Positions 31,430 through 32,915 of a stretch of DNA of 45,482 nucleotides are shown here, in pieces. A program made the position numbers and the translations under genes. Every line of letters starts with the position of its first letter. Position 1 is the stretch's first letter. The notes beneath the pieces were generated by a model. It was not told the origin of the DNA and made no database searches. It saw only the letters and a list, made by a program, of their open reading frames with translations. This stretch comes from Bacteroidia bacterium (GTDB taxonomy: Bacteria > Bacteroidota > Bacteroidia > SXHM01): positions 1-45,482 of the forward strand of contig JAGVLY010000108.1 of assembly GCA_020054035.1 (NCBI GenBank), in the 5' to 3' direction.

Positions 31430-31466
31430 TTTCGATCAATTTGTTTTTTGTAACGACAAAGTTTTA

Positions 31467-31474
31467 TATTTGCC
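31467..31474 (+). promoter_or_regulatory. Putative Bacteroidota -7 element (TATATTTG) upstream of repeat leader
   Basis: TTTTTTG...TTTTATATTTGCCCC fits TTTG-N~19-TAnnTTTG. Confidence 0.5.
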
Positions 31475-31499
31475 CCTCATTAAATTTCGAATCATGAAA

Positions 31500-31531
31500 C
31501 GAGTTTCCGAGTTTCCGAGTTTCCGAGTTTC
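31500..31531. repeat. 8-bp tandem repeat (CGAGTTTC)x4
   Basis: cgagtttc repeated exactly four times. Confidence 0.95.
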
Positions 31532-31629
31532 AGCTATAGTTGCGCCTTAAATTTATCAAGGGCCAAAAATCATAAAAAAGCTTCTGTTTTTTCCTTTTAC
31601 GGCAACCCCGTAACCTCATTATCCTTTAC

Positions 31630-31665
31630 CGGATTAGGTTTGCCAGATACGGCAAACCCAATCCG
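31630..31665. repeat. Hairpin with 15-nt arms at head of the 42-bp array
   Basis: CGGATTAGGTTTGCC-agatac-GGCAAACCCAATCCG, one mismatch. Confidence 0.8.
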
Positions 31666-31951
31666 CTATACCTTATTTACTGTTCTAAGATTAGCAAGTC
31701 AAATCTGCTATTCGGGATTACATCCTCTAAACTTAGCAAAGCAAATTTGCTATAACTTATTTACTCTTCTAACCTTAGCAAACCCAATCCGCTATACCGG
31801 ATTGCATCTTCTAAGGTTAGAAAATCCAATCCGCTATACCTTATTCACTCTTCTAAGATTAGTAAACCCAATCTGCTATACCGGATTGCCTCTGCTAATA
31901 TTAGCAAACCCAATCCGGCAAATACCTTTATATATAAACCATCACTAAAAC
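31640..31951 (+). CDS. Possible 14-aa-repeat Leu-rich protein (coding status uncertain)
   Basis: 42-bp units keep the frame: ANPIRYTLFTVLRL / ASQICYSGLHPLNL / AKQICYNLFTLLTL / ANPIRYTGLHLLRL ...; only a TTG start, no ATG. Confidence 0.25.
31652..31926. repeat. Tandem array: six exact-length 42-bp units plus a partial unit
   Basis: Units start at 31652, 31694, 31736, 31778, 31820, 31862, partial at 31904; consensus GCAAACCCAATCCGCTATACC...CTAAGRTTA; no indels. Confidence 0.92.
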
Positions 31952-31979
31952 CAATCACTAACCTTTAAAAACAAACAAA

Positions 31980-32915
31980 ATGAGCTCAATTTCACGTGAC
32001 CTACCCAAAACCTTCGAGGATCGTTATGAGGCCCTCGCACTTGCACGTAATAAACGCGACAGCCTTGCCGCCAATCCGTTAACAGCAGCCACCAATACCC
32101 GGCTTGATGCTATATGGACTGAAATCACCAACAAACGCATTGCGCTTGTAAACGCCAAAGCCACCTATAACGGCAACACGGTGGCAAAAAACACAGCAGG
32201 CACAGCCTTGCGCCTGCTTAACAGTCATTTTATACAAGTGTTTAACTTTGGAGTAGCACGCGGAAAATATCCCAAAGCACACCGCGATTTTTATACCCTT
32301 CCGTTGGAAGACAGCCCGCTGCCCGATTTTACAAAAGATAAAGATGCCCTTAAATGGGGGGCTTATATTGTTGAAGGCGATGCCCTGCGCGTAGCAGCCG
32401 GTGGTTTACCTATGAGCAACCCCGATGCCCTTGAAATGGATACGGCAAAAAACCTGTTTCATACCTTGTTTACCAACCAAAGCACGTTTAAAGATGCCCT
32501 TGATAACGCTCAAGAAGCATTAGAAGCCCTTGAACCAGAAACCGACAAGGTGGTTAGAAAAATATGGGACGAAATAGAAACCCATTACAACGAAGAAACC
32601 GAAGAAAGCCGCAGAGATAACTGCCGTGAGTGGGGAGTAGTGTATATTACTGTAGGCGACCAAAAAACATTAAGCGGTACAGTAACCTATAATGGCGCAC
32701 CGGGTGCAGGTTTGCAGGTGCGCTTTAAACGCGGACGCAACATCAGCATTGTTACAGCAGCCGGAGGCTACGCACTAAGCACCAATCTTATGGACGCACA
32801 AAAAATAGTGGTAGAAAAACTTGACGAAAACGATGATGTAATAAAAACCTGGGAATTTGAAATTACCCTGAACGAAAGCGGGGATAAGACGGAGAATTTT
32901 ACGGTGAATGATTAA
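31980..32915 (+). CDS. Orphan hypothetical protein, helical N-region with C-terminal CarboxypepD_reg-like beta domain
   Basis: ATG after AAAACAAACAAA; C-terminal LSGTVTYNGAPGAGLQVRFKRGRNISIVTAAGGYALST; no signal peptide. Confidence 0.65.
   Translation: MSSISRDLPKTFEDRYEALALARNKRDSLAANPLTAATNTRLDAIWTEITNKRIALVNAKATYNGNTVAKNTAGTALRLLNSHFIQVFNFGVARGKYPKAHRDFYTLPLEDSPLPDFTKDKDALKWGAYIVEGDALRVAAGGLPMSNPDALEMDTAKNLFHTLFTNQSTFKDALDNAQEALEALEPETDKVVRKIWDEIETHYNEETEESRRDNCREWGVVYITVGDQKTLSGTVTYNGAPGAGLQVRFKRGRNISIVTAAGGYALSTNLMDAQKIVVEKLDENDDVIKTWEFEITLNESGDKTENFTVND

Follow-up and report, generated by a model that had tools for sequence, protein, structure and literature searches.

The window analysed here is a stretch of 45,482 nucleotides (contig JAGVLY010000108.1 of assembly GCA_020054035.1, a Bacteroidia bacterium) in which an array of 42-bp tandem units stands upstream of a gene beginning at 31980. 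In our analysis this gene is a member of a multicopy Bacteroidota family that combines a helical bundle with an immunoglobulin (Ig)-like domain, and the array is linked to that family across taxa, being found at nearly every member in five taxonomic families. Across several Bacteroidota families the unit length, the palindromy and the position upstream of the gene family are conserved, while the unit sequence is not. The reading we prefer, and hold tentatively, is that the array serves the gene at 31980 as an operator-like DNA platform whose sites are in phase with the helix.

The array in the window

Within the Bacteroidota assembly G000, which comprises 1.87 Mb and is 68% complete, the window makes up contig 45. 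The array, its palindromes and the gene are located as follows.

31652-31917, no strand: core tandem array of 42-bp period, about 6.3 units of two alternating types that give an 84-bp higher-order period (Tandem Repeats Finder, TRF; lag scan)
31740-31751, no strand: palindrome AGCAAATTTGCT, the diverged type-1 site of its unit
31785-31804, no strand: type-1 palindrome CAATCCGCTATACCGGATTG, axis at 31794.5 (axis analysis)
31811-31820, no strand: type-2 palindrome CTAAGGTTAG, axis at 31815.5, exactly 21.0 bp past the preceding type-1 axis (axis analysis)
31853-31862, no strand: type-2 dyad CTAAGATTAG, axis at 31857.5, exactly 21.0 bp ahead of the next type-1 axis (axis analysis)
31869-31888, no strand: type-1 palindrome CAATCTGCTATACCGGATTG, axis at 31878.5 (axis analysis)
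31980-32915, plus strand: array-linked gene of 311 amino acids, with a helical bundle at residues 1-216 and an Ig/transthyretin-like C-terminal domain at 222-311 (AlphaFold2, Foldseek)

In the lag scan, flanking degenerate units stretch the array to about 31603-31956. TRF scores it at 211 for period 42 and 329 for period 84, the latter being the better fit, and self-identity is 0.69 at lag 42 and 0.74 at lag 84, against 0.13-0.39 at other lags except 126. The best 105-bp segment at lag 42 reaches a self-identity of 0.81, the maximum among 2000 shuffles being 0.49. An initial annotation had described the 42-bp units as exact. This is right for the unit length, as the core is free of indels, and wrong for the sequence, in which units are only about 70-80% alike. 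The alternation of unit types, the 84-bp period, the palindromes, a fourfold microsatellite and a promoter-like box that it had pointed out are all found in the window, although its coordinates for the dyads were off by one to three.

Linkage of the array to a gene family

Upstream of the other family members in the same genus (g1) there are tandem arrays of period 42 with unrelated units, and the same is true of members in f9, f16, f21 and f70, which are further taxonomic families of this class. The unit length is 42 bp at 55 family loci, whose unit consensuses are unrelated. In a prospective test on two further genera, the 800 bp upstream of each member were compared with themselves at lags of 15 to 120, and an array was counted if the best-matching lag was 42 or 84 at an identity of at least 0.58; the set was mostly, not wholly, new, a few loci or genomes having already been met in the class search. 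An array was found upstream of 25 of the 34 members and in only one of the 34 stretches of 800 bp downstream of the same genes, these being raw counts over two genera, in a study in which most genomes are metagenome assemblies. L197, L203 and L220 have their best lag at 42 and fall just short of the threshold, L215 is similar at 85, and L219 has a 41-bp array. The background rate upstream of ordinary genes was 12/795 in G002, a genome of the same genus, and 8/124 in G135 (both counts include family genes), or about 1.5-6% in these array-rich genomes, and 0/192 in two genomes that lack arrays. Short homologues in Bacteroidales, of about 235 amino acids, have no array upstream.

The initial annotation had called the gene at 31980 an orphan, which is wrong. 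Its relatives occupy 23 loci of other genomes and are present in all seven genomes of the same taxonomic family, which belong to one genus and have between one and six matches per genome. At class level, 27 of 389 genomes contain relatives. These counts are based on profile A1, because profile A2 at class level mostly matched the C-terminal domain of unrelated proteins.

Sequence turnover and copy number

Among 55 arrays, the unit consensuses at genes whose proteins are less than 60% identical agree at 18.4 of 42 positions, compared with 18.0 when shuffled, and proteins more than about 75% identical mostly keep the consensus; L199/L204 (80% identity) and L039/L057 (73%) are exceptions to this trend. 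Several g1 paralogues within one genome have mutually unrelated arrays, as far as these were compared. Copy number is not fixed, since close relatives differ by whole 84-bp steps: L049 and L050, and likewise L010 and L011, differ in array length by exactly 84 bp, that is, by one type-1/type-2 pair. In the species pair L035 and L036 two bases have changed in concert across the two arms of one palindrome. The dynamics of the arrays look like satellite-style turnover in which the register is kept. The initial suggestion of a recombination-prone regulator of the gene is supported in part, by the whole-pair copy steps and the link to the gene family, its regulatory part being putative.

A search for the window's 42-bp unit elsewhere in G000, as had been proposed, found it at one further locus, a seven-unit array on contig 85 (G000:C85:9815-10120, L008) that lies between two convergent genes and adjoins no family gene. 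The unit is thus present at two loci only in this assembly. Such a copy in trans fits a shared recognition site.

Dyad geometry

A palindrome of roughly 18 bp is present in each unit. Counted outwards from the axis, complementarity is 0.7-0.95 at positions two to seven, about 0.62 at position nine and about 0.35 at position ten, so that pairing reaches 9 bp on each side; the centre is less conserved, and the whole resembles an operator of about 18 bp. Among 25 non-redundant arrays, 23 have their axis between two bases. In 11 of these 25 arrays an axis displaced by exactly +21 bp took first or second rank among 77, where 0.65 would be expected. This was replicated in 24 new arrays, in nine of which the +21 axis was in the top two (0.6 expected) and in seven of which the second-best axis was at exactly +21.0 bp; axes lay between bases in 17 of the 24, and mean dyad strength was 0.61 as against 0.49 in column-permuted controls. 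About 40% of arrays have a second palindrome at a distance of exactly 21.0 bp. In B-DNA with 10.5 bp per turn, 21 and 42 bp correspond to two and four turns.

Changes that preserve the dyads are more frequent within 61 arrays than in shuffles (1694 vs 1525 paired cells and 170 vs 110 pair types), in a test that picked the best axis of each array and is therefore slightly biased in its own favour. In a 42-bp array between convergent genes in G002 (G002:C1:1137167-1137643) the palindromes vary along the array yet stay palindromic, with 55 paired cells compared with 34.7 in shuffles. This array is the strongest sign that dyad symmetry itself is kept. Intrinsic curvature of the units was considered and dropped, as it showed no excess over dinucleotide-shuffled units (mean z 0.1, computed from wedge values).

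Arrays elsewhere in the genomes

A stretch of 1.2 Mb in G002 contains 35 non-coding tandem arrays, and in 27 of them the period is a multiple of 21 (21, 42, 63, 84 or 105), as it is in 9 of 15 in G135; these counts are approximate because the coding mask was crude. True 21-bp arrays are present in both genomes as well. In G014 and G057 the array of the family gene is the sole non-coding array in the 100 kb sampled, and no non-coding arrays were found in 200 kb of G168 or 100 kb of G045. The non-family neighbours of arrays include several genes for other small proteins, and some of these end in a CarboxypepD_reg or fn3-like domain. A second array-linked family, with 21-bp arrays, was seen at L060:17695-18909, L130:2951-3868 and L149:13540-14442, two of its members having CarboxypepD_reg C-termini, and a third, which has no Pfam match and is present in two taxonomic families, at L129:4519-5244 and L156:15623-16294, next to arrays of 42 and 41 bp. 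In G002 a 42-bp array (G002:C1:357615-358004) lies directly upstream of a gyrB-like gene, a possible point of interest with regard to supercoiling.

Possible functions of the array

Because the palindromes recur every 42 bp, with a second set at 21.0 bp in some arrays, equivalent sites face the same side of the helix. One or more putative dimeric DNA-binding proteins could occupy these sites cooperatively as a one-sided nucleoprotein array, and such an array may set the expression or the topology of the adjacent promoter. Unequal exchange would homogenise the units within an array, letting each array drift to a sequence of its own, and the helical register would be held by selection. We favour a platform for a cooperative dimer because the phasing of DNA explains the fixed length, the between-base axes and the 21-bp spacing without sequence conservation, and RNA explains none of these three. 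Several observations weigh against this platform. About half of the arrays have no clear second dyad, and in genus g1 and in G135 similar arrays precede unrelated genes too. The family protein is a poor candidate, because no DNA-binding fold was matched to its N-terminal domain in a Foldseek search of the predicted structure and this helical domain is acidic in many members. In addition, the unrelated arrays of the g1 paralogues of one genome could not be read by a single sequence-specific binder.

A serious rival, although we consider it rather unlikely, is that the arrays are satellite-like DNA with no function in cis, slippage or unequal exchange being biased by the 10.5-bp helix towards periods of 21n wherever intergenic space allows. 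It gains its weight from the arrays of 21, 42, 63 and 84 bp scattered in G002 and G135, and the rapid sequence turnover, the variable copy number and the array between convergent genes are all as it would have them. It does not account for the close association, in several taxa, with a single gene family, and it sits poorly with the G014 and G057 stretches, where the only non-coding array per 100 kb is that of the family gene, and with dyads that exceed permuted controls and are preserved beyond shuffles. Another possibility is that every family protein, possibly in oligomeric form, would assemble on the array of its own gene, in the manner of plasmid partition or replication proteins and their iterons, the paralogues thereby keeping distinct arrays. 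That each gene has a single array, and that the arrays of the compared g1 paralogues are unrelated to one another, agrees with such an address, as does the precedent of the F-plasmid centromere parS, with its twelve 43-bp tandem repeats holding ParB sites (PMC8465637), but the acidic domain and the missing DNA-binding fold, the existence of unrelated array-linked proteins and the short Bacteroidales homologues that lack an array make this a quite improbable account. We regard as unlikely, too, the broader proposition that each chromosomal paralogue works with its own satellite-like array, in which the four-turn register and the palindromes are conserved and the sequence diverges to separate the paralogues. 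If true, plasmid centromeres or iterons would have a counterpart that is chromosomal and linked to a gene.

A structured 5' leader RNA, transcribed ahead of the gene and regulating its expression or binding a protein through hairpins, had been proposed in the initial annotation, and the promoter-like box 5' of the array and the folding of the dyads as hairpins (mean z -3.3 relative to column-permuted arrays) speak for it, weakly at best; constant-length repeats of Bacillus coagulans are transcribed (PMC8625621). An RNA would need neither the exact 21-bp dyad spacing nor the between-base axes, however, and the mismatches in the dyads show no clear G-U excess (GT 62, AC 46). Only 9 of 25 arrays fold more stably as the sense strand, the sequence 5' of arrays shows no enrichment of TAnnTTTG boxes (four matches in 7.25 kb), and the contig 85 copy of the window array is not a leader, because it lies between convergent genes. 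A leader RNA is accordingly an unlikely explanation, and Rfam gave no family at the gathering threshold, only weak matches at chance level. A coding array with a 14-residue repeat, as a cryptic coding sequence or as the repeat protein also proposed initially, draws on a period divisible by three and on a 102-residue open frame in the window. It is hardly credible, as an open sense frame is missing from 13 of the 25 non-redundant family arrays, the antisense strand is open as often as the sense strand, and the AT-rich arrays are full of stops; with coding excluded for half of the arrays, this reading was dropped.

Relationship to known repeats

The closest known kind of repeat is that of Subirana and Messeguer, non-coding bacterial repeats of constant length and variable sequence within one genome, whose function is unknown (PMC8161180). 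They fall into classes of 20-21 nt in many phyla and 52 nt in Firmicutes, besides coding repeats (PMC8161180); roles in the nucleoid or as small RNAs have only been suggested, and they are possibly transcribed (PMC8161180, PMC8625621). The arrays described here are like them in the fixed unit length, in the unrelated sequences of different arrays and in not coding for protein. They differ in having two alternating palindromes 21 bp apart, in keeping their dyads and in being tied to a gene family. Compared with the 20-21 and 52-nt classes the unit is here 42, or 2 x 21, with dyads 21 bp apart, and the self-identity of the window array at lag 21 is only 0.25. A text search of PMC8161180 for palindromes, for an upstream link and for Bacteroidota found none of them. 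In comparison with the descriptions cited here, the two-palindrome unit of 42 bp and its link to a single gene family appear to be new.

The nearest mechanical analogue is F-plasmid parS (sopC), in which the repeats, of about four helical turns, stand in cis to the cognate genes (PMC8465637). There the sequence is conserved, ParA and ParB are neighbours and the locus is plasmid-borne, whereas the sequence of the 42-bp arrays is not conserved. Neither the tested window neighbours nor the family protein matched ParA or ParB, and no relative was found in plasmids; the arrays were not assigned to the parS type, for want of Par genes and of sequence conservation. Iteron arrays are repeated sites beside the gene of the replication protein that binds them, and paralogous systems carry distinct iterons. 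Unlike these, the family is chromosomal and has no replication protein and no DNA-binding fold. Repetitive extragenic palindromic (REP) sequences and bacterial interspersed mosaic elements (BIMEs) are intergenic palindromes (PMC3733652). REPs are dispersed copies of one sequence, while the window unit is found at only two loci in the 68% complete G000; an assignment to palindromes of REP and REP-associated tyrosine transposase (RAYT) systems was rejected, the many dispersed copies being absent. An array of clustered regularly interspaced short palindromic repeats (CRISPR) was also rejected, as the units are contiguous with no spacers, no Cas match was found among the tested neighbours and the protein had no PADLOC match.

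Constant-length, free-sequence repeats of bacteria have so far been described as enigmatic. The subclass considered here has a constraint that can be stated, namely palindromes every two or four helical turns, and genomes in which the sampled stretch holds one array beside one family gene make the question experimentally tractable. That question is which protein recognises palindromes whose sequence varies while their register is fixed, and how it acts on the adjacent gene.

The family protein and other features of the region

The AlphaFold2 model of the 311-residue protein has a mean predicted local distance difference test (pLDDT) score of 91, and its C-terminal part is a beta sandwich that resembles usher and CarboxypepD_reg-type domains in Foldseek. 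The helical part alone (model pLDDT 92) had no PDB match at E <0.001 in Foldseek, and a sequence search of the PDB with the family protein gave a single match at E 0.75. No fitting family was found in Pfam, NCBIfam, PHROGs or PADLOC, the C-terminal domain alone resembling CarboxypepD_reg-type folds. Relatives were sought in viral contigs, phages and plasmids and none was found, and an origin from a mobile element or phage was dropped on this ground. No conserved gene neighbours were seen among the loci looked at, and the Pfam matches of the tested window neighbours are LptD and M48 only.

Four further features lie around the array in the window.

31465-31472, plus strand: box TATATTTG, matching the Bacteroidota TAnnTTTG promoter element (consensus match only)
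31500-31531, plus strand: microsatellite (CGAGTTTC)x4
31627-31644 and 31651-31668, no strand: inverted repeat with 18-nt arms, 89% complementary, at the 5' edge of the array
31640-31948, plus strand: open frame of 102 amino acids spanning the array, judged spurious

The inverted repeat consists of array-like sequence; it had been reported as a hairpin with 15-nt arms, and its presence was borne out while the arm length was too short. The microsatellite is probably incidental, since none was seen at the related loci read.

Proteins of about 120-180 amino acids match only the first 55 and the last 53 positions of the family profile, which corresponds to the bundle minus its middle. They are encoded at the following positions.

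G002:C3:65925-66254: bundle-minus-middle protein
G003:C73:9727-10056: bundle-minus-middle protein
G004:C95:8022-8345: bundle-minus-middle protein
G005:C37:17800-18129: bundle-minus-middle protein

The contigs of L044, L053, L055 and L056, which are from related assemblies, stop inside family genes near the same residues, and this suggests near-identical segments of paralogues that break the assembly.
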